IMG/VR virus record: IMGVR_UViG_3300047552_001046
Span: 1 to 20,021 of that record
Length of the DNA stretch: 20,021 nucleotides
Reading direction: 5' to 3' (one strand)
Source of the DNA: a virus
Positions 2,603-20,016 of the stretch are shown here, piece after piece (the first letter of the stretch is position 1; every line of letters starts with the position of its first letter). The notes beneath the pieces are model-generated. The model worked only from the letters and a program-made list of their open reading frames with translations. It was not told the origin of the DNA and did not search any database. Both the position numbers and the translations under genes were made by a program.

Positions 2603-3274
2603 ATGGCACTAGATACAAACAAAGTCGATCCAGTACTGGGTAAACAAGTCGAAGATCATCTTCGCAAACTCAATCTACATACACCAACAACAGAGTTACT
2701 ATCTACACCAGATAAGAAAAAGATCGCTAAGATTGAAAAGGCAATGTCTGATGTTATGGCTACTCTCGGTATGGATCTAACAGATGATTCGTTAATTGAT
2801 ACTCCCAAGCGTGTTGCCAAAATGTTTGTCAATGAGCACTATTGGGGACTTCATCCAGAGAATTTCCCTAAAGTCACTTTGATTGAAAACAAGATGCACT
2901 ATGATGAGATGCTTATCGAAAAAGACATTACAGTAATGTCAAACTGTGAGCATCATTTGGTCACAATTGAAGGCAAAGCACACGTGGCATATATGCCAAA
3001 CGGTAAAGTTATTGGTCTCTCAAAACTCAATCGTGTTGTGGAATATTTTAGTCGTCGTCCTCAAGTACAAGAACGATTGACCAGTCAGATTTTTGAAGCA
3101 TTGAAATTCATTCTTGGTACAGAGAATGTCGCAGTTGTTGTTAATGCAAAACATTATTGCGTTGTTAGTCGTGGTGTTGGTGATCAATCTTCATACACAA
3201 TGACAAGTGCATTAGGTGGATACTTCAGGGATAGGATTGAAGTTCGTAAAGAGTTTCTATCATTGGTGATTTGA
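2603..3274 (+). CDS. folE: GTP cyclohydrolase I
   Basis: A 223-residue FolE, full length for the family. Zinc ligands are C115, H118 (in SNCEHHL) and C186 (in HYCVVSRG), equivalent to Cys110, His113 and Cys181 of the E. coli enzyme. The conserved stretches IGLSKLNRVVEYFSRRPQVQERLT and the C-terminal FRD are present. It converts GTP to 7,8-dihydroneopterin triphosphate, the first step of both folate and 7-deazaguanine synthesis. In phages, a folE close to dpdA and queD is a recognised signature of 7-deazaguanine DNA modification. TAGGAG stands 8 bases before the ATG. A short GAGC/GCTC inverted repeat precedes it at 2563-2585. Confidence 0.95.
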   Translation: MALDTNKVDPVLGKQVEDHLRKLNLHTPTTELLSTPDKKKIAKIEKAMSDVMATLGMDLTDDSLIDTPKRVAKMFVNEHYWGLHPENFPKVTLIENKMHYDEMLIEKDITVMSNCEHHLVTIEGKAHVAYMPNGKVIGLSKLNRVVEYFSRRPQVQERLTSQIFEALKFILGTENVAVVVNAKHYCVVSRGVGDQSSYTMTSALGGYFRDRIEVRKEFLSLVI

Positions 3275-3633
3275 TGTTAACACGTTGGATAGAAGTTTCA
3301 TTTAGAAAAGCAGGAATTCATTACTATCCTGGGTGCGATCAGGTTCCTAGTTTGGAGCCGGTCGCATATTTGGCAAATAGGCACCGCCATTTATTTCATT
3401 TTAACGTTCGTATAGAAGTATTTCATAATGATCGTGAATTGGAATTTATTATGGTTCAAGAAGAACTTGTAGGACTGTTTGATTCAAGTACTATTGATGT
3501 TAATGGTAAGTCCTGTGAAATGCTGGCAGAAGATTTGATAGATTATATTCGTACTAAGTACACAAATAGAAACATCATCGTCAAAGTATTTGAAGATGGA
3601 GAAAATGGAGCAGTATTAGAATATGTCAAATAA
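3274..3633 (+). CDS. Small protein with possible T-fold (QueD-like) features
   Basis: A 119-residue protein whose ATG shares one base with the folE stop (TGATG). HRHLFHFNVRIEVFHNDRELEF followed by SCEMLAEDLIDYI and VKVFEDGENGAVLEY resembles the tunnelling-fold layout of QueD and 6-pyruvoyl-tetrahydropterin synthases: a His-containing beta hairpin, a Ser/Cys-Glu helix, and a final strand with Glu. The match is distant and key zinc ligands cannot be placed, so this is inference. The position between folE and dpdA supports a role in the deazaguanine pathway. Otherwise it is a conserved phage protein of unknown function. Confidence 0.55.
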   Translation: MLTRWIEVSFRKAGIHYYPGCDQVPSLEPVAYLANRHRHLFHFNVRIEVFHNDRELEFIMVQEELVGLFDSSTIDVNGKSCEMLAEDLIDYIRTKYTNRNIIVKVFEDGENGAVLEYVK

Positions 3634-4897
3634 AATAGTTCAATGGGAGTATGTGATATCCGCATTATCACATACGGGGCTGGACCATAAGTCCATATTT
3701 GAAAATGTGGAAGTGTTGGACAAAATTAACGATATGTTTGGTGCAGCACAAAATAAACACAATCATAAAGTTAGTTTGTTGTTCAATGCTTTTACCGAGA
3801 AAAATCACGGTAAAAAATTATTGAATTACTCTAAAGTGTATAATGTGCATAGTGACTCTGGAGGTTTGCAAGTAGTCACTTTGGGTAAAAAAATTGACGC
3901 AGATATGCGTAAGAAAATTTACGAAACACAAGCAAAATATTCTGACGTTGCTATGAGTTTTGATGAAATGCCAGTTGCAGTAGATGAGAGATCGACTAAG
4001 TTGGATACCAATGCTCGTAGGTTTGATAAAGATAATTTTGAATCAATGTCTAGACAATCTGGCAAAAATTTGCTCGAACAGATTAATTATTTTCTTGATG
4101 AAAAGACAAAATGTAAACCGTTAGTCATTCTTCATGGTAACGACATCGATTGGTATCAGCGTAATCTAAATTATATTTTGGAAGAAATTCCAGAAACTAA
4201 ATGGAAGTATATTGGTGGTATCGCTTGCGGATCTGGTGCAATGGGATTTGGGACATTGGAGAACATAGAACGATCTGCAGTGATGGCGTTTATTGATGCA
4301 CCGAAACATCTTAAGAAAAAATATCACGTACTAGGTGTCGGATCATTAGGTCGAATGATGCCGTTAGTTGCTCTATTGCGAAATGGTGTGTTCGATAAAG
4401 ACGTTCATATATCGTATGATAGTTCATCTTTGACAATTTCATTTACTATGGGGTTTCATCACTTTGATGATTGGTGGTGTAAAAGTAAACTCACTAAACA
4501 GTATGATGAAACATTCTTAAAAATGTACGATGACGTTTCTAAAAAAGCGCATGAGATATTTGGTGGAGACGTGACAATTGATCGTGAAGATTTACACAAA
4601 CTAATGTGTTTGTCTAAAGGCGCCGGTGCAAGAGGAGATCATCCAGAAAAATTTATTCTAAATGCTGCAGTGTTGTTATCGTCTGTTATGAACTTTAATA
4701 AACAATTACATCGCTTGACGACTGAAGAAAATTATTACAATGACTACGTGACTACACAGAATAAAATGTTATCATCACTATCCATGATAAAGTCGAAACA
4801 AGATTTTACCGCATGGAAACGAGATTGTGGTAGATTTTTCGACTCACAGCGCGTTAGTGATGGAACAGAATCTTCCTTAGAGGAGTTTTTCGCATGA
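3623..4897 (+). CDS. dpdA: DNA 7-deazaguanine transglycosylase (DpdA, TGT superfamily)
   Basis: A 424-residue protein with the tRNA-guanine-transglycosylase barrel signatures: SDSGGLQ (residues 77-83, matching the DSGGFQ loop with its catalytic Asp), SFDEMP (112-117), GGIACGSG (198-205), LGVGSLGRM (237-245) and SYDSSS (264-269), where D266 is a candidate nucleophile. The usual C-terminal zinc site of tRNA TGTs is not obvious. Phage members of this family, named DpdA, exchange guanine in DNA for a 7-deazaguanine and so shield the genome from restriction. Its position after folE fits. The DpdA subfamily and the exact base cannot be told from the sequence. It overlaps the gene before by 11 bp and the one after by 4 bp. 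Confidence 0.85.
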   Translation: MSNKIVQWEYVISALSHTGLDHKSIFENVEVLDKINDMFGAAQNKHNHKVSLLFNAFTEKNHGKKLLNYSKVYNVHSDSGGLQVVTLGKKIDADMRKKIYETQAKYSDVAMSFDEMPVAVDERSTKLDTNARRFDKDNFESMSRQSGKNLLEQINYFLDEKTKCKPLVILHGNDIDWYQRNLNYILEEIPETKWKYIGGIACGSGAMGFGTLENIERSAVMAFIDAPKHLKKKYHVLGVGSLGRMMPLVALLRNGVFDKDVHISYDSSSLTISFTMGFHHFDDWWCKSKLTKQYDETFLKMYDDVSKKAHEIFGGDVTIDREDLHKLMCLSKGAGARGDHPEKFILNAAVLLSSVMNFNKQLHRLTTEENYYNDYVTTQNKMLSSLSMIKSKQDFTAWKRDCGRFFDSQRVSDGTESSLEEFFA

Positions 4898-7344: not shown

Positions 7345-8466
7345 ATGAAAGTACAAGAATTCATCTTCAAGAATGGTTTGGATGCTTTGACTGAACAGTA
7401 TGGTGTCGAAGTCAAGCGGTATGATAATGGCTACGTGCAACTCAACTATTCACAAATTGACTCGCCTAAGATGGTTGATGTTGTAGATGAGTGTCGTGCA
7501 TTGACTTTGCTAGTCAATGCAGACAATACTTCAAAGGTGATTGGTCGAGGGTTCAAGCGATTCTACAATTTCGGTGAAGCGAATACCAAGGACTTCGATT
7601 TCTCAAATGCAATCGCATGGGAAAAAGCAGATGGGTCATTAACTCTTGTGCGTTGGTCACCTTTGGATAACAAGTGGATCATAGGCACTCGTGGTATGGC
7701 GTATGCAGAAGGGAACTTTGTGTTCTCAATGACTGCATCCGGTGGCACGTTTTATGACTGGATTCTGAAAGCATTTGGTGTTGGTGAAGACCAATTCCAA
7801 GAAGCGTTTGCTGATTGTGATCGTGGTTGCACTTATGTCTTTGAATACACCGCACCAGAAAATCGGGTAGTAACTCGCTACATGGAACCGAAAATGGTTT
7901 TATTGGCAGTGATAGAGAACGACACTGGCAAAGAAGAGGCTATCGGTACCTGGCAAACATACTTCTCTGATTCAGGTCTGAATGTTCGATTGCCAAAGTC
8001 ATGGGCAGTTGGTTCATCTGATGAAGTTGTGAAACTAATTGAAACACTGGATGTACTAGAAGAAGGGTTTGTTGTATATGATTGCACTTCTGGTAATCGT
8101 GTAAAGATCAAGTCTGCTGCGTATGTTGCTGTACACCACCTTCGTGGCAATGGTACTCCGTCTATGTCTCGTTTGATGGAAGTGGTGTTGATGAATGAAC
8201 AGGATGAGTTAATTGAGTACTTCCCAGAGTTTGCATCGTATGTTGATCCGATTGTGGAAGCATTACATCAATTGAATCAGGAAGCTGATTATATCTTCAA
8301 TACTAACAAAGGTGCAGAGTCACAAAAAGATTTTGCTTTGGCAGTAAAAGATAGTCGTGTTGCTGCAATATGCTTCAAGGCACGGAAAGAGAATGTGACT
8401 GCACACCGTGCTTTTGAGACAATGGAGATGTCTCAACAAGTCAAACTGTTGGAGAAATTTGTTTAG
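7345..8466 (+). CDS. rnlA: RNA ligase 1 (T4 Rnl1 family)
   Basis: A 373-residue ATP-dependent RNA ligase; T4 Rnl1 has 374. Nucleotidyltransferase motifs are in order: motif I EKADGS with nucleophile K94, motif III-like VFEYTAPENR (165-174), motif IV EEGFVVYD (239-246) and motif V VKIKS (253-257). It seals 5'-phosphate to 3'-OH RNA ends. In T4 the enzyme with Pnkp repairs tRNA-Lys cut in the anticodon loop by PrrC. The ATG at 7345 is chosen over TTG 7324, which lies inside the previous gene. The gene is near rnl2, pnkp and a tRNA array that includes three Lys tRNAs. Confidence 0.93.
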   Translation: MKVQEFIFKNGLDALTEQYGVEVKRYDNGYVQLNYSQIDSPKMVDVVDECRALTLLVNADNTSKVIGRGFKRFYNFGEANTKDFDFSNAIAWEKADGSLTLVRWSPLDNKWIIGTRGMAYAEGNFVFSMTASGGTFYDWILKAFGVGEDQFQEAFADCDRGCTYVFEYTAPENRVVTRYMEPKMVLLAVIENDTGKEEAIGTWQTYFSDSGLNVRLPKSWAVGSSDEVVKLIETLDVLEEGFVVYDCTSGNRVKIKSAAYVAVHHLRGNGTPSMSRLMEVVLMNEQDELIEYFPEFASYVDPIVEALHQLNQEADYIFNTNKGAESQKDFALAVKDSRVAAICFKARKENVTAHRAFETMEMSQQVKLLEKFV

Positions 8467-8488
8467 TTTCAATGAGTTACCACATCTA

Positions 8489-8540
8489 TTGTGTTTCTCC
8501 TTGATTGATGTATAATGAATTCATCGATTAAGGAGAAACA
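8489..8540 (+). promoter_or_regulatory. Promoter inside a 19-bp inverted repeat that covers the RBS
   Basis: TTGTGT (8489-8494), N16, TATAAT (8511-8516), then ATTCATCGATT. The arm at 8492-8510 pairs with 8522-8540 over all 19 positions in RNA (17 Watson-Crick plus two G-U), and the right arm holds AGGAG (8531-8535) of the gene starting at 8543. Read-through RNA would hide the RBS; RNA from this promoter lacks the left arm and leaves it open. Confidence 0.72.
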
Positions 8541-8542
8541 AG

Positions 8543-8824
8543 ATGTCCCGCAAAACATTCAGTGTAGAAGAACTCAAAGACATGGTCAACGGTGTGTGCC
8601 GTTTTAGTACAGATGAACATAAAGGTGTTCGTCAAGGTGCAATGAATGTTTTGGAAGAAGTTCTGCATCGTACTGGCAACTATCATGGATTTCGTTACCT
8701 AGCTCCGCACGAAATGGAAGCTGGATACTCTTTTGGGATCAATATGGGTAGTGATGGTAGTTTGTCCAATGATTATGAGTTGCGTTTTGCCGATACCGAT
8801 AACACCCGAGTTCAATATAACTGA
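8543..8824 (+). CDS. Conserved phage hypothetical protein
   Basis: A 93-residue protein: MSRKTFSVEELKDMVNGVCRFSTDEHKGVRQG...EEVLHRTGNYHGFRYL and a C-terminal tail ending DTDNTRVQYN. I recognise the general pattern from small proteins of T4-like phages, but no function is known to me. It appears to have an N-terminal helical part and a C-terminal beta part. It begins right after a promoter/RBS hairpin and is followed after 10 bases by another tiny gene, so it leads the transcript that carries rnl2 and pnkp. Confidence 0.78.
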   Translation: MSRKTFSVEELKDMVNGVCRFSTDEHKGVRQGAMNVLEEVLHRTGNYHGFRYLAPHEMEAGYSFGINMGSDGSLSNDYELRFADTDNTRVQYN

Positions 8825-8834
8825 GAGGTATATC

Positions 8835-9008
8835 ATGTGTGACAATTTCGATTTTGATGACCTGCAATATTCCGAAAGGTATGCGGAATACATTATGGAA
8901 AACAGTAAAGGTGATCGCATTATTTGCAACGGCGATATGCTGACCGAAGCAATGGAAGATATGTATATGTGGGACGATTTCCTTCGTTATATTGGAGCAA
9001 AAGAATGA
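8835..9008 (+). CDS. Small acidic protein, unknown function
   Basis: A 57-residue, strongly acidic protein (MCDNFDFDDLQYSERYAEYIMENS...) with GAGAGG (8823-8828) before the ATG. Its stop overlaps the rnl2 start (ATGA), so it is likely translated with rnl2. No motif is recognised. The charge and aromatic content resemble small phage proteins that bind host factors, but that is only a resemblance. Confidence 0.68.
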   Translation: MCDNFDFDDLQYSERYAEYIMENSKGDRIICNGDMLTEAMEDMYMWDDFLRYIGAKE

Positions 9009-10015
9009 GTGAATTTGTTGGTTGGCCCGAGATTGGGCAATTTCGTAATGCAGTAAAAGCGATTCAAAATCGTGTGTGCTGGAATGGTAAAGATGAGAAC
9101 GGCGATCCTATTTTTGATCGCACTCGAAAGATGCCTGTACTAAAATTCATTGGCACAGTCAAGTCACACGGAACCAATGCTGCTATTCGTTTCAATGCTG
9201 ATGGGTCTACTCAGTATCAATCTCGTCAGAATGATATTACTCCGCTGAAAGACAATGCAGCATTTGCTTTCAATATGTCAGTGATTGATTTTGCACCAAT
9301 CAAAGTGATGTTTGAGTTCAAAGAGACTCTGATCATTTTTGGAGAGTGGTGCGGCGGCAATATTCAAAAGGGTGTTGCTATTTCTGGCCTGCCTAAGATG
9401 TTTTTGATCTTCGGTGCAATGATCGATGGTGAATGGCAAGATATGTTGAAGTTCAAACACGTTCGTATGCCCGAAAACAACATCTACAACATCTTTGACT
9501 TCCCGACATTTGAGGTTGATATTGATTTTGCCAATCCTGCTGATATTCAAAATCGTTTGATTGAATTGACTGAACAAGTTGAGGCAGAGTGCCCAATTGG
9601 CAAGTACTTTGGTAATGTTGGTGTGGGTGAAGGCATTGTTTGGTTCGCTGAAGACCTAGACTATCGGTTTGCGGATGCACGATTCAAAGTGAAAGGTGAG
9701 AAGCACAGTGTTTCAAAAGTGAAGAAACTTGCTTCTGTTGATACTGAAAAATTGGATTCAATCAAGGCATTTGTTGATATGGTTGTGACTGATGCACGTT
9801 TGAATCAAGGCATCGAGTATATCAAATCACAAGGACTGGATATTGATGTCAAAAACACTGGAGCGTTCTTGAAGTGGTTTGTTGGTGATGTTATCAAAGA
9901 AGAGAGTGACCAAATGGTAGCAAATGGCCTTGAACCGAAAGATGCTAATGCTGCTGTGTCAAAGAAAGCCCGTGAGTGGTTCTTTGAACAATTGAATAAG
10001 GAAGCAGGTCTATGA
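9005..10015 (+). CDS. rnlB: RNA ligase 2 (T4 Rnl2 family)
   Basis: A 336-residue ligase with motif I VKSHGTN (nucleophile K53; G56-T57-N58), motif III FGEWCGG (112-118), motif IV GEGIVWF (208-214) and motif V FKVKG (227-231). KxxGTN and the C-terminal extension beyond motif V (about 105 residues) are those of the Rnl2/RNA-editing ligase group, which seals nicks in duplex RNA; T4 Rnl2 also has a separate C-terminal domain. The start at 9005 overlaps the previous stop and agrees with family length; an upstream open frame to 8924 lies within the previous gene. The pnkp gene follows with a 4-bp overlap. Confidence 0.9.
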   Translation: MSEFVGWPEIGQFRNAVKAIQNRVCWNGKDENGDPIFDRTRKMPVLKFIGTVKSHGTNAAIRFNADGSTQYQSRQNDITPLKDNAAFAFNMSVIDFAPIKVMFEFKETLIIFGEWCGGNIQKGVAISGLPKMFLIFGAMIDGEWQDMLKFKHVRMPENNIYNIFDFPTFEVDIDFANPADIQNRLIELTEQVEAECPIGKYFGNVGVGEGIVWFAEDLDYRFADARFKVKGEKHSVSKVKKLASVDTEKLDSIKAFVDMVVTDARLNQGIEYIKSQGLDIDVKNTGAFLKWFVGDVIKEESDQMVANGLEPKDANAAVSKKAREWFFEQLNKEAGL

Positions 10016-10908
10016 AAGCTATTGTTACGATTGGCGTATCTGCGTCAGGTAAAACTACTTGGGCGAAACAATATGCCAAAGAATCCATTAGCCACACTAT
10101 GGTCATTTCCCGCGATGATATTCGTCGTGAGATTCTTGAACTTCGCCACAAGCGTCGTCTAGAACCAGGCGAACTATGGAAAATGTGGAAATGGAAAGAT
10201 GAAGATCTTGTCACTGCAAAGTTTCAGGAACAGGTTGCTGTGGCACATCGTAATGGATTTGATCTTGTTATCGCTGATACCAATCTTGTTGAAAAGTACA
10301 GAGTACTGACAGTCAAGCGACTTGAAGATCTTGGTTACGAAGTTGAACTAAAATTGTTTCCTGTCACATTTGAGGAAGCAGTCAAGCGTGATAACGGTCG
10401 TGCTGATGGTGTTGGTGCTTCGGTCATTTGGAAACAGTTCAAACAATATCACGATACTATCGGTACTCAGAAATATGTCCGTGATACCACACTAGACAAA
10501 GTTATCATTTTTGACGTTGATGGCACTCTTGCTATTATGAAAGATCGTGGTCCGTTTGATTGGGACAAAGTTGGGCAAGATGAAGTCAATGAAGATGTTG
10601 CTGCAATGTTTCGTGCATACAAAGCAATGGGATATAGAATGATTGTGATGTCTGGTCGAGATGGTGTTTGCAGACCAGAGACATATGATTGGCTTGAGAA
10701 AAATGATCTTCATCCATTCGTTCTTCTCATGCGTAAAGCAGGAGATATACGGCGTGATTCAGAGATTAAGCGAGAACTATTTTTCAAATATGTCGCACCA
10801 TACTACAATGTGTGTGGTGTTGTTGATGATCGTAAGCAGATGATTCGTGAGTGGCAACTTATCGGACTCACGGTGTTTAATGTAGGTGATGCACACGAGG
10901 AATTTTAA
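10012..10908 (+). CDS. pseT: Polynucleotide 5'-kinase / 3'-phosphatase (T4 Pnkp)
   Basis: A 298-residue bifunctional end-healing enzyme, nearly the length of T4 Pnkp (301). The kinase domain has P-loop GVSASGKT (8-15), SRDDIR (33-38; D35, R38) and VKRDNGR with R126, the same residue numbers as in T4. The acyl-phosphatase-type domain has FDVDGTL (D168, D170), MSGRD (213-217) and VVDDRKQM (270-277). It removes 2',3'-cyclic phosphate or 3'-phosphate and phosphorylates 5'-OH ends, preparing cleaved tRNA for Rnl1. ATGA overlap with rnl2 makes a healing-and-sealing operon. Confidence 0.96.
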   Translation: MKAIVTIGVSASGKTTWAKQYAKESISHTMVISRDDIRREILELRHKRRLEPGELWKMWKWKDEDLVTAKFQEQVAVAHRNGFDLVIADTNLVEKYRVLTVKRLEDLGYEVELKLFPVTFEEAVKRDNGRADGVGASVIWKQFKQYHDTIGTQKYVRDTTLDKVIIFDVDGTLAIMKDRGPFDWDKVGQDEVNEDVAAMFRAYKAMGYRMIVMSGRDGVCRPETYDWLEKNDLHPFVLLMRKAGDIRRDSEIKRELFFKYVAPYYNVCGVVDDRKQMIREWQLIGLTVFNVGDAHEEF

Positions 10909-13625: not shown

Positions 13626-14126
13626 ATGAGTGAAGCAGTTCAAAAGAAATTTGTTAGTACAAAAGAGTATATTGATGCATTCCCAGTAGCATATCGTCAG
13701 TGGAGAGCAGACTCACATTGCCAGCATATTCACGGATACAGTTTGTCAATGAAGTTTTATTTTGAGACCGACACTTTGGATATTCGTAATTGGGCAGCAG
13801 ATTATGGTGGTCTGAAGGAACTCAAGAATTTCCTTGAGGATAAATTTGATCACACATTGCTTGTTGCGCTTGACGATCCAGAGTACGAATTGATGAAGGA
13901 ACTTGGCAAGCGAAAGATGGCAAAGATCACAGAAGTCGAGCGAACTGGTTGTGAAGGTATTGCCGATTTTCTTTACAAGTATGTGAATGGTGTGTTTATC
14001 CCCGATATGTGGGGTCCTGGCGAAGCAGAACGACTTTGGTGTTTCAGGGTTGAAGTGCGTGAGACTCAGTCCAATATGGCTTGGCGTGAAGGTCATAGAG
14101 AATGGAATGAAGATTTATTTGAGTGA
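13626..14126 (+). CDS. queD: QueD-like 6-carboxytetrahydropterin synthase (divergent)
   Basis: A 166-residue T-fold protein. HCQHIHGYSLSMKFYFE (31-47), a DYGGLKELKNFLEDKFDHTLL core (D75, H76 matching the catalytic Asp-His of QueD) and VRETQSN (E146, matching the substrate-binding Glu) support the family. Relative to E. coli QueD, C32 lines up with catalytic C27 and H36 with H31, but the other two zinc ligands appear as Y23 and Y38, with H31 and H34 as possible substitutes. It may therefore bind metal differently or do a related reaction. Together with FolE it would feed the 7-deazaguanine pathway ending in DpdA. Confidence 0.75.
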   Translation: MSEAVQKKFVSTKEYIDAFPVAYRQWRADSHCQHIHGYSLSMKFYFETDTLDIRNWAADYGGLKELKNFLEDKFDHTLLVALDDPEYELMKELGKRKMAKITEVERTGCEGIADFLYKYVNGVFIPDMWGPGEAERLWCFRVEVRETQSNMAWREGHREWNEDLFE

Positions 14127-15179: not shown

Positions 15180-15713
15180 TTGAAGAAGACTATTATCGCA
15201 GCAGCACTAATCGCAGCATCTACTATTGCATCAGCACAATCATTCGTTGGTGTTGAAGTATCACCAGATACACGCAACAAGAACACCAACCGTGATGCAT
15301 CAACCTTTCTAGTCAATGCAGGTACCAATATTGGTCAATTCACTATTGACGCAATCGGAACTGCTGGTAAAGAAGATACTGGTTCATTGAATCAGACACT
15401 ACAAGGTCGTATTGCATACAATATGGGTCCAGTGTGGGCTCGTGCTGGTTATGGTCAGCAATTTGTGCAAGGTGATAATTACAACTTTATGACTTATGCA
15501 GTTGGTGGTGCACTACCAGTAACTAAAGAAGTTGCATTGACTGCATCAGTTGAGAAAGTTGATGCCGCAGGTCGTAGTGCTGATTTCAATGCATATAATG
15601 TTGGTGTAAATTATGCTTTGAATGCAAAGAGCACAGTATCAGCTGGATATCAAATCACTAATGGTGACTACGATTCCAAAGGTTTCAAAGTGGGATACAA
15701 CTATAAGTTCTAA
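15180..15713 (+). CDS. Phage-encoded outer-membrane beta-barrel protein
   Basis: A 177-residue protein with a TTG start set by AAGGAGA six bases upstream. Residues 1-19 form a clear Sec signal peptide (MKKTIIAAALIAASTIASA) with an Ala-x-Ala cleavage site. The mature part is about 158 residues of alternating amphipathic strands (LVNAGTNIGQFTIDAIGTAG, VWARAGYGQQF, VALTASVEKVD, STVSAGYQI) and ends with Phe, the Omp85 recognition signal. This is an 8-10-strand OmpA/OmpX-size barrel. Codons are GCA/CA-rich but otherwise like neighbours. In a phage it could alter the host surface, for example to block superinfection, as suggested for lambda Lom-like proteins. Confidence 0.8.
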   Translation: MKKTIIAAALIAASTIASAQSFVGVEVSPDTRNKNTNRDASTFLVNAGTNIGQFTIDAIGTAGKEDTGSLNQTLQGRIAYNMGPVWARAGYGQQFVQGDNYNFMTYAVGGALPVTKEVALTASVEKVDAAGRSADFNAYNVGVNYALNAKSTVSAGYQITNGDYDSKGFKVGYNYKF

Positions 15714-17705: not shown

Positions 17706-17781
17706 AGTCCATTAGCTCAATCGGGAGAGCAGAGTGTTGATAACGCTCAGGTACTTGGATCGAAACCAAGATGGACTACCA
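17706..17781 (+). tRNA. tRNA-Ile(GAU)
   Basis: All stems are regular: acceptor AGTCCAT/ATGGACT, D-stem GCTC/GAGC with GG in the loop, anticodon arm GAGTG-TTGATAA-CGCTC (GAT at 17739-17741), T-stem CTTGG/CCAAG, discriminator A and encoded CCA. The T-loop is ATCGAAA, so position 54 is A where U is normal; this is the T-loop of eukaryotic initiator tRNA. Confidence 0.88.
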
Positions 17782-17786
17782 ACAAC

Positions 17787-17861
17787 ACACCGTGAGACAG
17801 CTGGCGTGGTCAGTAGCCTTTCAAGCTACCTAGATGGGATCGTAACCCATACGGTGTACCA
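17787..17861 (+). tRNA. tRNA-Glu(UUC), altered T-loop
   Basis: Acceptor ACACCGT/ACGGTGT, anticodon arm GTAGC-CTTTCAA-GCTAC (TTC at 17820-17822), T-stem ATGGG/CCCAT, discriminator A and encoded CCA. The T-loop is ATCGTAA: A54 and U58 instead of U54 and A58. Position 8 is G and position 14 is G. Stems are intact, so this is not simple decay. Confidence 0.85.
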
Positions 17862-17870
17862 AAATTAGGT

Positions 17871-17946
17871 GACATAGACTAATAGTGCTGCTATTGGTGT
17901 AATGACAGTTGAAGTCTGTAAAGGTAAGCCCCACCCTATGTCACCA
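17871..17946 (+). tRNA. tRNA-Phe(GAA), enlarged 5' arm and reduced T-arm
   Basis: 76 nt with acceptor GACATAG/CTATGTC, discriminator A and encoded CCA; leader GGT pairs with the trailer ACC to make 10 bp. The anticodon loop TTGAAGT sits on ACAG/CTGT. The D region is about 7 bases longer than normal and contains AATAG-TGCTG-CTATT; the T region is about 6-7 shorter, with GGT-AAGCCCC-ACC and no TTC. The total length stays normal, as in the tRNA-like gene at 16840. Confidence 0.6.
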
Positions 17947-17953
17947 ACAATAT

Positions 17954-17985
17954 TTGACAGTAATTATCCAGTATGTAATAATTAC
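17954..17985 (+). promoter_or_regulatory. Internal promoter in the tRNA array with overlapping palindrome
   Basis: TTGACA (17954-17959), a 17-base spacer and AATAAT (17977-17982) match sigma70 consensus at 11 of 12 positions. GTAATTAT (17960-17967) and ATAATTAC (17978-17985) are exact inverted copies overlapping spacer and -10, a possible operator. It would transcribe the tRNA-Leu at 17996 onward. Confidence 0.6.
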
Positions 17986-17995
17986 ATCATTGAAT

Positions 17996-18115
17996 GCAGG
18001 AGTGGCGGAACTGGTATACGCAACGGACTTCTTCAATGACATTGATAACATCCAGTGTCATTCTAAAAATCCGTCGACTTTTGTCATGTGGGTTCGACTC
18101 CCATCTCCTGTACCA
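17996..18115 (+). tRNA. tRNA-Leu with a 35-nt intron-like insertion in the anticodon loop
   Basis: Acceptor GCAGGAG/CTCCTGT, U8G9, D-arm with CTGGTA, variable arm GAC-TTTT-GTC, canonical T-loop TTCGACT, discriminator A and encoded CCA. The anticodon stem ACGGA/TCCGT (18023-18027 / 18070-18074) encloses 42 bases where 7 are normal. These fold as CTTCTTC, a 10-bp hairpin (18035-18062, one G-U) and CTAAAAA, a symmetric 7x7 internal loop. Joining CTT to AAAA would give a CTTAAAA loop with anticodon UAA; other junctions give other anticodons. Confidence 0.8.
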
Positions 18116-18130
18116 ATAAATAGTTTCAAT

Positions 18131-18205
18131 GGGCTCGTGGTGATAATGGGAGCACTTCTGTTTTGCAAGCAGAGAGACACGGATCGTAACCGTGCGGGTC
18201 CACCA
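18131..18205 (+). tRNA. tRNA-Ala(UGC), altered T-loop
   Basis: Acceptor GGGCTCG/CGGGTCC, anticodon arm TCTGT-TTTGCAA-GCAGA (TGC at 18164-18166), T-stem CACGG/CCGTG, discriminator A and encoded CCA. T-loop ATCGTAA (A54, U58). Position 14 is U; G18G19 are present. Confidence 0.87.
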
Positions 18206-18215
18206 AAGAATAAAT

Positions 18216-18289
18216 TGCGGCTTCAGATAGACTGACTCCAGGCTCATAACCTGTGATGGAATATGGAGCGTTACCATAGGCCGCATCCA
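18216..18289 (+). tRNA. tRNA(CAU), Met or Ile2, compact D-arm
   Basis: Acceptor TGCGGCT/GGCCGCA, anticodon loop CTCATAA (CAT at 18245-18247) on CAGG/CCTG, T-stem TATGG/CCATA, discriminator U and encoded CCA. The D-stem TCAG/CTGA directly abuts the acceptor with no position 8-9 linker; its loop is only ATAGA. The variable loop is 7 bases. T-loop AGCGTTA (A54, G55, U58). Met versus lysidine-modified Ile cannot be decided. Confidence 0.75.
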
Positions 18290-18299
18290 GTAACACAAT

Positions 18300-18374
18300 T
18301 CCCTGTTAGCTCAGTGGCAGAGCAATCGCCTTGTAAGCGATAGGTCGAGATCTCGGAATTCTCACAGGGAACCA
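18300..18374 (+). tRNA. tRNA-Thr(UGU)
   Basis: Acceptor TCCCTGT/ACAGGGA, canonical U8A9 and D-arm GCTC/GAGC, anticodon arm ATCGC-CTTGTAA-GCGAT (TGT at 18332-18334), discriminator A and encoded CCA. The T-arm is GAGAT-CTCGGAA-TTCTC: a U-U mismatch replaces the invariant G53-C61 pair, and the loop has C54 and G58. Confidence 0.88.
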
Positions 18375-18393
18375 ATGAATTAGTTGTATTTGA

Positions 18394-18468
18394 TGTGTGC
18401 GAGCAAGCAAGGTGTAAGCGGCTGGCTGTTAACCAGCATAGAGCTAGGTTCGATTCCTAGGCACACAG
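18394..18468 (+). tRNA. tRNA-Asn(GUU) in a 17-bp extended acceptor helix
   Basis: Acceptor TGTGTGC/GCACACA, anticodon arm GCTGG-CTGTTAA-CCAGC (GTT), canonical T-loop TTCGATT and discriminator G; no CCA encoded. The D-stem is weak (two pairs). Leader TTGTATTTG and trailer CAAATACAA are exact complements, so with the acceptor about 17 pairs form with one mismatch. Leader-trailer pairing this long would affect RNase P and 3' trimming. Confidence 0.8.
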
Positions 18469-18482
18469 CAAATACAATTTAT

Positions 18483-18556
18483 CTCGTCGTAACTCAATGG
18501 ATTAGAGTATTCGGCTTCTACCCGAATTGTTGGGGGTTCGAGTCCCTCCGACGAGG
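18483..18556 (+). tRNA. tRNA-Arg(UCU)
   Basis: Regular cloverleaf: acceptor CTCGTCG/CGACGAG, U8A9, D-stem ACTC/GAGT, anticodon arm TTCGG-CTTCTAC-CCGAA (TCT at 18517-18519), T-loop TTCGAGT and discriminator G. CCA is not encoded. Leader TTTAT and trailer ATAAA can pair after a 2-base offset, extending the acceptor helix. Confidence 0.9.
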
Positions 18557-18598
18557 CATAAAGTAAATTTTACATATATACACATAGGAGGACAATTT

Positions 18599-19285
18599 AT
18601 GTTCTATTATTTGTATGAAATCAGGAACAACCTGAATGGTAAAATTTACGTAGGAGTTCATAAAACCAATGATATGAATGATGGTTATATGGGCTCTGGA
18701 AAAGTTATTCGACGAGCTATAGAAAAGTATGGTGTCGAAAACTTCACAAAGACTGTACTTGAAGAATTCGGTACAGCTGAAGAAATGTTTGCGAAAGAAA
18801 AAGAAGTAGTGAATGATGAATTTCTTCTTAGAGAAGATGTGTATAACCTAAGACGAGGTGGATTCGGTGGGTTTGAGTTTATCAATAAAAATGGTTTAAA
18901 TTTATTTGAAAATCTCTCTGCAGAAAGTCAACAAAAACACAGAGAATCTGGTCGTCGATCCGCAATAAGACTTAGAGATTCTAAACGAGGGATTCATGGA
19001 CTTTCAGCTGAAGATCGTGTAAAAAACAGCAAAAAAGGTATAAAGAAACTTCATGAAGTTATGCTTGAGAAACATGGAGTAAAATCTTTTTTTGGGCAAC
19101 TGAATAAATTACCATCTTTTCAAGAAAAAAGAAAACAAGCATTTGCTGATATTGGGCATCAGCAAGGCGAAAAGAATAGTCAATATGGAACTATGTGGAT
19201 CACAAACGAAATTGAAAGTATCAAAATCATGAAATCACAACCGATACCTCAAGGGTGGAGAAAAGGTAGAAAAATAAAGAAATAA
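18599..19285 (+). CDS. GIY-YIG homing endonuclease inserted in the tRNA array
   Basis: A 228-residue protein, ATG at 18599 with TAGGAGGA at 18586-18593; longer in-frame starts overlap tRNA-Arg. The N-terminus FYYLYEIRNNLNGKIYVGVHKT is the GIY-YIG core, followed by RRAIEKYGVENF with the conserved Arg and FAKEKEVV with the conserved Glu, a complete nuclease site. The C-terminal half holds a basic region and ends GTMWITNEIES...IPQGWRKGRK, a module common at the end of phage homing endonucleases. T4 likewise carries endonuclease seg genes by its tRNA cluster. It separates tRNA-Arg and tRNA-Pro without breaking either. Confidence 0.92.
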   Translation: MFYYLYEIRNNLNGKIYVGVHKTNDMNDGYMGSGKVIRRAIEKYGVENFTKTVLEEFGTAEEMFAKEKEVVNDEFLLREDVYNLRRGGFGGFEFINKNGLNLFENLSAESQQKHRESGRRSAIRLRDSKRGIHGLSAEDRVKNSKKGIKKLHEVMLEKHGVKSFFGQLNKLPSFQEKRKQAFADIGHQQGEKNSQYGTMWITNEIESIKIMKSQPIPQGWRKGRKIKK

Positions 19286-19300
19286 GTTAGTACTCAGTGT

Positions 19301-19375
19301 CTAGGTGTATTGTCAATCTGGTAGACGGCCCTCTTTGGAAGTGGGAGGCTGCAAGTTCAAATCTTGCCACCTAGA
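19301..19375 (+). tRNA. tRNA-Pro(UGG) in a perfect 17-bp extended acceptor helix
   Basis: Acceptor CTAGGTG/CACCTAG, D-arm with CTGGTA, anticodon arm CCCTC-TTTGGAA-GTGGG (TGG at 19336-19338; one T-T mismatch), canonical T-arm GCAAG-TTCAAAT-CTTGC and discriminator A. CCA is not encoded. The leader TACTCAGTGT (19291-19300) pairs perfectly with ACACTGAGTA (19375-19384), giving 17 continuous base pairs with the acceptor. Confidence 0.88.
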
Positions 19376-19389
19376 CACTGAGTATTATT

Positions 19390-19484
19390 GTTCCTCAGCT
19401 TTGGTGAGCGGCGGTGTCTTATAAACACTGGAGAGTGGCTAGATTGGCTGCAACGGCACGGATCGTAACCGTGGAGGAATACCA
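19390..19484 (+). tRNA. tRNA-Ile(UAU)-like with 27-nt variable-region insertion
   Basis: Acceptor GTTCCTC/GAGGAAT, D-stem GCT/AGC, anticodon arm GGTGT-CTTATAA-ACACT (TAT at 19420-19422), T-stem CACGG/CCGTG, T-loop ATCGTAA, discriminator A and encoded CCA. The variable region (19430-19456) has 27 bases where 4-5 are normal for Ile, without a clear class II stem. It includes GTGGCTAGATTGGCTGC, which looks D-arm-like. Confidence 0.65.
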
Positions 19485-19519
19485 AAATTTGTCTGTGTAT
19501 GAAGTGATCTAGTCAATCC

Positions 19520-19620
19520 ACCTTAATCGTCAAGGTACTAACAACATCCTATCATCGTATGTGACAATACGGAAAATGGTAGGAGAGTCAAACTGTACTC
19601 TTAAACACATCGACGATAGG
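19520..19620 (+). ncRNA. Hairpin elements, unassigned
   Basis: ACCTT-AATCGTC-AAGGT (19520-19536) is a perfect 5-bp, 7-loop hairpin. CCTATC-A-TCG (19548-19557) pairs with CGA-C-GATAGG (19611-19620); this 73-nt unit holds AGAGT/ACTCT inside. It is tRNA-sized but has no clear anticodon or CCA. Confidence 0.3.
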
Positions 19621-19633
19621 CAATTTGAATTAT

Positions 19634-19708
19634 GCGGGTAAGGTGTTGGTGGTTACACGACAGTCTTCCAAACTGTAGTGCTCGGATCGTGCCCGAGTAC
19701 CCGCTCCA
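19634..19708 (+). tRNA. tRNA-Gly(UCC), inverted tertiary positions
   Basis: Acceptor GCGGGTA/TACCCGC, D-stem GTGT/ACAC with GG in the loop, anticodon arm ACAGT-CTTCCAA-ACTGT (TCC at 19667-19669), T-stem CTCGG/CCGAG, discriminator U and encoded CCA. Position 8 is A and 14 is U; T-loop ATCGTGC has A54 and U58. Confidence 0.88.
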
Positions 19709-19715
19709 GTCTCAA

Positions 19716-19770
19716 AGGATGCGTTCAGCAAACTTAAAAATTAGACTTTTAATCTAAAAATAAGCATCCT
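19716..19770 (+). tRNA. Miniature tRNA-Lys(UUU) without T-arm
   Basis: Perfect acceptor AGGATGC/GCATCCT and perfect anticodon arm TTAGA-CTTTTAA-TCTAA (TTT), yet only 55 nt in all. The anticodon stem is joined to the 3' acceptor strand by six bases (AAATAA) with no T-arm; the 5' side has 18 bases with at most GTT/AAC pairing. CCA is not encoded. The shape recalls metazoan mitochondrial mini-tRNAs. It may be a decoy or a true minimal tRNA. Confidence 0.55.
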
Positions 19771-19780
19771 GTTTAGTTAT

Positions 19781-19855
19781 AGTTCCGAAGTGTTCATAGA
19801 CGCACACTAGACTGTCAATCTAGAAGAGCGGGAGCGTTACCCGTCGGAGCTGCCA
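19781..19855 (+). tRNA. tRNA-Asp(GUC), inverted tertiary positions
   Basis: Acceptor AGTTCCG/CGGAGCT, D-stem GTGT/GCAC, anticodon arm CTAGA-CTGTCAA-TCTAG (GTC at 19814-19816), T-stem GCGGG/CCCGT, discriminator G and encoded CCA. Position 8 is A and 14 is U. Position 18 is A and 55 is G. T-loop AGCGTTA has A54 and U58. All stems are intact. Confidence 0.88.
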
Positions 19856-19861
19856 ATCAAT

Positions 19862-19935
19862 GGGTCATTAGTTCAATAGTAGAACATCTGGCTTTTAACC
19901 AGTCGACGAAGGGGCGGAACCTTCATGGCCTACCA
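19862..19935 (+). tRNA. tRNA-Lys(UUU)
   Basis: Acceptor GGGTCAT/ATGGCCT, D-stem GTTC/GAAC, anticodon loop CTTTTAA (TTT at 19894-19896), T-stem GAAGG/CCTTC, discriminator A and encoded CCA. The D-loop is AATAGTA (A18, G19) and the T-loop GGCGGAA (G54, G55, G58). Confidence 0.88.
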
Positions 19936-19941
19936 AAATAA

Positions 19942-20016
19942 GGATTGCAAGCTTTAATGGTGAAGCATACGGCTCTTACCCGTAAGAACACAGATCGTTA
20001 CTGTGGCAATCCACCA
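19942..20016 (+). tRNA. tRNA-Lys(CUU), inverted tertiary positions
   Basis: Acceptor GGATTGC/GCAATCC, D-stem GCTT/AAGC with GG, anticodon arm TACGG-CTCTTAC-CCGTA (CTT at 19975-19977), T-stem CACAG/CTGTG, discriminator A and encoded CCA. Position 8 is A, 14 is U, and the T-loop ATCGTTA has A54 and U58. Confidence 0.88.

Follow-up and report, generated by a model that had tools for sequence, protein, structure and literature searches.

Two RNA ligases and a 5' kinase/3' phosphatase (Pnkp) lie in one gene run of a phage contig that also carries a tRNA array, and the question raised by this locus is which RNA such a set of enzymes normally acts upon. The stretch analysed, referred to below as the window, is the linear IMG/VR record IMGVR_UViG_3300047552_001046 of 20,021 bases. 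It encodes a tRNA-Leu(UAA) whose anticodon loop is interrupted by a 35-nucleotide (nt) hairpin insert. Inserts of this kind recur in tRNA genes across unrelated phages. From sequence, this suggests that certain phages process their own tRNAs by cutting and splicing; an extra role of the RNA repair set is then likely to be the sealing of enzymatically spliced phage tRNAs. The three repair genes are arranged as follows.

7345..8466, + strand: rnl1, T4 Rnl1-type ATP-dependent RNA ligase, 373 amino acids, KADG at residue 94
9005..10015, + strand: rnl2, T4 Rnl2-type RNA ligase, 336 amino acids, KSHG at residue 53
10012..10908, + strand: pnkp, 5' kinase/3' phosphatase, 298 amino acids, P-loop GVSASGKT and DVDGT

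Together, the three genes form an RNA repair set of the T4 type. Rnl1 contains KxDG and Rnl2 contains KxHG, and Pnkp combines an N-terminal P-loop kinase with a C-terminal DxDxT phosphatase. In profile searches, Rnl1 matched Pfam RNA_lig_T4_1 (PF09511; 41.9 bits against a cut-off of 28.3), Rnl2 matched RNA_ligase (PF09414; 38.4 bits against a cut-off of 27) and Pnkp matched AAA_33 together with HAD_PNKP (140 bits); the PHROG matches were at 7.5e-41 (Rnl1, RNA ligase), 2e-54 (Rnl2, PHROG 548) and 2.8e-86 (Pnkp). Rnl1 could be aligned to the solved T4 Rnl1 (2c5u) over most of its length, and residues 2-292 of Pnkp to the solved T4 enzyme 1ltq. Rnl2 shares ~39-49% identity with its best isolate-phage relatives, and a single-sequence search gave no solved-structure match for it. 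An initial annotation of this DNA had described the three genes as lying within 3.6 kb, with all active-site residues and an ATGA overlap between rnl2 and pnkp; this was confirmed, and the genes are intact. The accompanying statement that the genes are dispersed in T4 is incorrect for one pair, since T4 pseT (134002-134907) and rnlA (136340-137464) are only 1.4 kb apart. Among 80 loci carrying Rnl2 relatives, Rnl1 was encoded within 10 kb of Rnl2 in 25, and Pnkp was present too in only one of those 25 (L037).

The candidate substrate lies downstream, on the same strand.

17996..18115, + strand: pre-tRNA-Leu(UAA), class II, CCA encoded, full cloverleaf except for the insert
18031..18065, + strand: insert of 35 nt between U34 and A35; excision gives the loop CUUAAAA
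18035..18062, + strand: 10-bp helix AAUGACAUUG/CAGUGUCAUU with loop AUAACAUC, having A-U as pair 2 and U.G as pair 8

The anticodon loop of this tRNA is 42 nt long (CUU, the 35 nt and AAAA) and is closed by a perfect 5-bp anticodon stem, while the acceptor, variable and T arms and the encoded CCA are intact. The insert is predicted to fold as the 10-bp helix next to a 7x7 internal loop, and the junction expected in a spliced RNA is ACGGACUUAAAAUCCGU. At 35 nt, the insert falls short of a group I intron, which would have a conserved core and more than ~190 nt; it has the character of an enzymatically removed intron, being short, unlike a ribozyme and placed in the anticodon loop of a tRNA that is complete in all other respects. 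The initial annotation had called the tRNA set unusual, which holds for the aberrant T-loops described below, and had missed this hairpin.

Related inserts were sought in viral contigs with two pattern scans and a cloverleaf check for Leu(UAA), and with a third pattern scan for CAU anticodons. A generic cloverleaf scanner with a reversed-sequence null was run on 4.6 Mb of phage DNA; it replaced ARAGORN with introns allowed, which was too noisy. Inserts of 30-50 nt were found by the pattern scans and cloverleaf check in 21 distinct phage tRNA-Leu(UAA) genes, and the third scan supplied further CAU cases. The generic scanner additionally detected inserts in Met(CAU) of contig G024, in Asn and Lys tRNAs of G026, and in Phe, Val and Leu(UAG) tRNAs alongside Leu(UAA) in a single 230-kb phage (G020); the reversed-sequence null, run on a quarter of the data, gave no match with such a score. 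Removal of the insert restores the anticodon UAA or CAU.

In six phages (G001, G004, G008, G011, G013 and G020), ARAGORN identified no intact Leu(UAA) gene besides the interrupted one among the 17-43 tRNAs of the stretches read, which were nearly whole for G001, G004, G013 and G020 and shorter contigs for G011 and G008. The interrupted tRNA is likely to be functional because it is the sole Leu(UAA) gene found in those six phages. In G004, 62% of Leu codons are UUA; in most of the others, the share is 17-30%.

Isolate phages and bacteria were also searched. Blastn with several insert-bearing tRNAs returned no insert-bearing isolate, and the Leu insert pattern was not found in T4, Cr30, RHph_I1_18, Lbo-JY46 and four other isolates. 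Application of the Leu pattern to a sample of bacterial genomes in GTDB gave, among the matches listed, group I-sized introns at the U34|A35 site (186-282 nt, including one probable artefact of tandem genes) as well as Leu genes in tandem, and no mini-insert in tRNA-Leu(UAA).

A shared signature was evident in six of the phage inserts, namely those of the window, L164, L168, L171 and L222 (all Leu) and L343 (Met), which have a helix of exactly 10 pairs in common. The A-U pair 2 and the U.G pair 8 are invariant in all six, whereas the remaining eight positions vary and covary; U.G was seen at only 4 of the 54 other positions. A scan with this signature recovered L176, L206 and L180 and added two intact tRNA genes from outside the defining set, a Met(CAU) in G013 (L488) and a Leu(UAA) in G026 (L216, complete in L623). 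The reversed null produced one match in 5.5 Mb, and two matches in real sequence were not tRNAs. The insert of L195 deviates from the signature at pair 8 (U-A).

Other inserts and tRNA-like elements were also observed. The 47-50-nt Leu(UAA) inserts of L166, L181 and L192 have CCAGTG and a hairpin loop RGCAGCA in common and possibly form a separate structured class. A single 230-kb phage has related inserts of 80-82 nt (ATGWGAGWCTYCC...) in its Leu(UAG) and Val(UAC) tRNAs (L486 4016 and L206 866). An HDV-like ribozyme match (L206 789-856; 41.5 bits against a gathering threshold of 44) sits just 3' of a tRNA with the T-loop ATCGTTA, within an array carrying several introns, and a sub-threshold match to bacterial RNase P RNA (37 bits) lies within another phage tRNA array (L164 678-1117, minus strand). 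Elements resembling tRNAs, with D and T arms of the Leu type (AGTCAGGTGGCGGAATGG...) and no clear anticodon arm, recur in L083, L087, L105, L131 and L161.

The relationship between the inserts and the RNA ligase genes was analysed using contigs with an intronless Leu(UAA) as controls. One locus with an 86-nt loop (L162) was omitted from the counts because part of its insert resembles a T arm, and the insert may extend over two tRNAs. On contigs of at least 100 kb, a Pfam-level RNA ligase was found in eight of nine insert-bearing contigs and four of 12 controls (Fisher p=0.016); at a minimum of 60 kb, the counts were 8/11 and 6/21 for RNA ligase (p=0.02), 5/11 and 2/21 for Rnl1 (p=0.03) and 2/11 and 0/21 for the Pnkp phosphatase domain (p=0.11). 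The window sequence was the starting point of the search, which was adjusted once results had been seen, and these p-values are therefore indicative only. In G024, the closest relative, which has several genes in common with the window, only 19 nt separate the end of the insert-bearing tRNA-Leu from rnl1 downstream of it, and pnkp comes next. In G021, Rnl1, an insert-bearing tRNA-Leu and separate kinase and phosphatase open reading frames (ORFs) all lie within ~12 kb. The combined co-location p was 0.0015-0.003.

One interpretation of these data, which we regard as on balance probable, is that Rnl1 and Pnkp, with Rnl2 in the same gene run, supply the healing and sealing steps of a pathway that cuts and rejoins tRNAs, and that the phage pre-tRNA-Leu(UAA) is one normal substrate of this pathway. 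A putative endonuclease would recognise the 10-bp helix beside the ~7x7 internal loop and would cut on either side of the insert, 3' of nucleotide 34 and 5' of nucleotide 35, so that the ends carry 2',3'-cyclic phosphate and 5'-OH. Once Pnkp had healed these ends, Rnl1 would join the exons into a normal CUUAAAA loop. Transfer RNAs cleaved by host anticodon nucleases could be mended by these enzymes too. The wider proposal is that this is a phage-borne third tRNA-splicing system, in which mini-introns at nucleotides 34/35 of tRNA-Leu(UAA) and tRNA-Met(CAU), marked by the U.G-containing 10-bp helix, are cut by a candidate endonuclease and the exons joined by Pnkp and Rnl1; its chances appear about even. 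The initial annotation had grouped tRNA repair, splicing and escape from anticodon nucleases as one module. The splicing part is now backed by a tRNA intron, its recurrence and the link to ligases, and repair stays as a rival or second role.

Several observations weigh against splicing by these enzymes, beginning with the fact that we infer splicing itself from gene sequences. Contig G013 (112 kb) carries two signature inserts and had no match to Rnl1, Rnl2, Pnkp phosphatase or RtcB; two further insert-bearing contigs, G002 and G015, had no ligase match, and a Leu(UAA) insert was found in none of 26 records of phages with these ligases. The gene rnl1 is present as two ORFs at a similar place in G024 and G026 (L344 2085-4005 and L617 4183-5729), being interrupted by an antisense ORF in G024, and the co-location p weakens to 0.04-0.09 when G024 is left out. 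The association counts are small, the contigs fragmentary and the relatives non-independent, and many of the pattern choices were post hoc. Finally, among insert-bearing records other than the window, tRNA_int_endo (PF01974) was detected in 0 of 18, with archaeal controls positive.

The proteins found in common to insert-bearing phages were Rnl1 and GIY-YIG homing endonucleases, with no convincing splicing nuclease among them. A ~100-amino-acid protein adjoining the insert-bearing tRNA in G007 and G021 was put aside because it appears to be a small protein of wide occurrence. RtcB was detected in 0 of 25 insert-bearing records, again other than the window; involvement of a host RtcB is possible.

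The strongest alternative is that the enzymes carry out ordinary T4-type repair of host or phage tRNAs cut by PrrC/RloC-like nucleases, the hairpin being removed by host enzymes such as RtcB or being unrelated. In T4 (PMC3400036) and in jumbo phages (PMC7824862), these enzymes are known to perform such repair; most ligase-bearing phages are without the Leu(UAA) insert, and G013 has inserts but no ligase match. The enrichment of ligases with inserts and the direct adjacency of tRNA-Leu, rnl1 and pnkp in G024 speak against this alternative, and it is considered rather unlikely as the whole explanation. It could also be that the hairpin tRNA is never spliced and is a decoy, a regulator or a dying gene, which might occupy or escape an anticodon nuclease. 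The indirect case for splicing and the other aberrant tRNAs in the same array leave room for this; the intact acceptor, variable and T arms and encoded CCA, the covarying helix with two fixed positions, the position of the gene as sole Leu(UAA) found in otherwise rich tRNA sets and the sensible anticodon restored by excision render it distinctly unlikely. A self-splicing or self-cleaving RNA, or a group I intron reduced in size, was considered because the inserts occupy the site of the group I introns of tRNA-Leu(UAA) in bacterial genomes, and the 80-82-nt Val and Leu(UAG) inserts (L206/G020) and the 47-50-nt CCAGTG...GCAGCA group do look more structured, but this is very improbable, as inserts of 30-36 nt are far below group I core size, the short ones are without the terminal G before A35 found in group I examples, and none of the inserts in the scanned loci matched an intron or ribozyme family of Rfam, which also gave no group I match in the window array or in six loci with other inserts.

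The array surrounding the interrupted tRNA, and an ORF inside it, have the following extents.

17706..20016, + strand: tRNA array of 12 cloverleaves with 7-nt anticodon loops, plus Leu(UAA), plus a 95-nt Ile(UAU)
18599..19285, + strand: GIY-YIG homing-endonuclease-like ORF, inside the tRNA array

About a dozen array tRNAs were reported by ARAGORN and Rfam, and 12 were convincing by cloverleaf scan (Ile, Glu, Ala, Met, Thr, Asn, Arg, Pro, Gly, Asp, Lys-UUU and Lys-CUU). The array near the ligases had been described as aberrant, and indeed six of the 12 cloverleaves have A54...U58 in place of U54...A58, whereas three have a normal T-loop; the swapped sequences (window 17787-20016) are ATCGTAA, AGCGTTA, ATCGTGC and ATCGTTA, and Thr has C54..G58. 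The swap was found in 48 of 1119 phage-locus tRNAs and 0 of 111 in bacterial loci (Fisher p=0.01). A specific tie of altered T-loops to the ligases, as first suggested, was not borne out by this spread over many phage loci; the swap could not be tied to the ligases and is treated as a separate phenomenon. A candidate armless mini tRNA-Lys(UUU) was also noted at 19718-19772, with ends GGATGC/GCATCC, an anticodon arm TTAGA-CTTTTAA-TCTAA and no T arm. Relatives of the GIY-YIG ORF were present at 6 of 28 insert-bearing loci versus 2 of 118 control loci, and this ORF could mobilise inserts.

Elsewhere in the window lie genes for a GTP cyclohydrolase (2603-3274; PHROG 2197), a protein that appears TGT/DpdA-like by eye (3623-4897; PHROG 10773, of unknown function) and a QueD-like protein (13626-14126; PHROG 2389), which are possible 7-deazaguanine pathway genes. 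A gene for a porin-like outer-membrane protein is located at 15180-15713 of this phage contig.

If the inserts are spliced, phages would own a form of cut-and-join tRNA splicing so far known only from archaea and eukaryotes, T4-type RNA repair enzymes would have, beyond counter-defence, a substrate built into the phage genome, and an RNA-specific endonuclease of a new kind would await discovery. As a speculation, the anticodon is unreadable before splicing, and the intron might thus also shield the tRNA from anticodon nucleases.

In standard teaching, tRNA splicing by enzymes belongs to archaea and eukaryotes, and the tRNA introns of bacteria are self-splicing and of group I. The phage inserts resemble archaeal and eukaryal nuclear tRNA introns in being short anticodon-loop inserts that would need enzymatic removal, the archaeal ones measuring 16-44 nt (PMC3400036), and the plant and fungal-type 5'-3' healing-and-sealing ligase route is chemically close to Pnkp/Rnl1. 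In contrast to those introns, the phage inserts lie at nucleotides 34/35 with a 10-bp helix and 7x7 loop and no identified bulge-helix-bulge, although no search with a model of that motif was made; the insert-bearing records scanned are also without a tRNA_int_endo gene, and the hosts are presumed to be bacteria. The group I intron of bacterial tRNA-Leu(UAA) occupies the same tRNA and, in GTDB genomes, the same U34|A35 insertion point, but it is self-splicing and ~190-280 nt long, whereas the phage inserts are mostly 30-50 nt and without a group I core. Bacterial tRNA introns were described as group I in 2012 (PMC3400036), and according to a 2014 review (PMC3984707) every phage intron seen until then lay in a protein-coding gene; no phage tRNA mini-intron was found in the literature searched, coverage of which was incomplete. 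The RNA-repair sets of jumbo phages likewise bring Rnl1, Rnl2 and PNK-HAD together in large phages with many tRNAs; introns in phage tRNA genes are not mentioned in the available part of that survey (PMC7824862). In T4 itself, Pnkp and Rnl1 belong to the same enzyme families, probably use the same chemistry and act in the anticodon loop; there, however, the break in tRNA-Lys is made by host PrrC, whereas the cuts proposed here would be programmed by an insert encoded in the phage tRNA gene.

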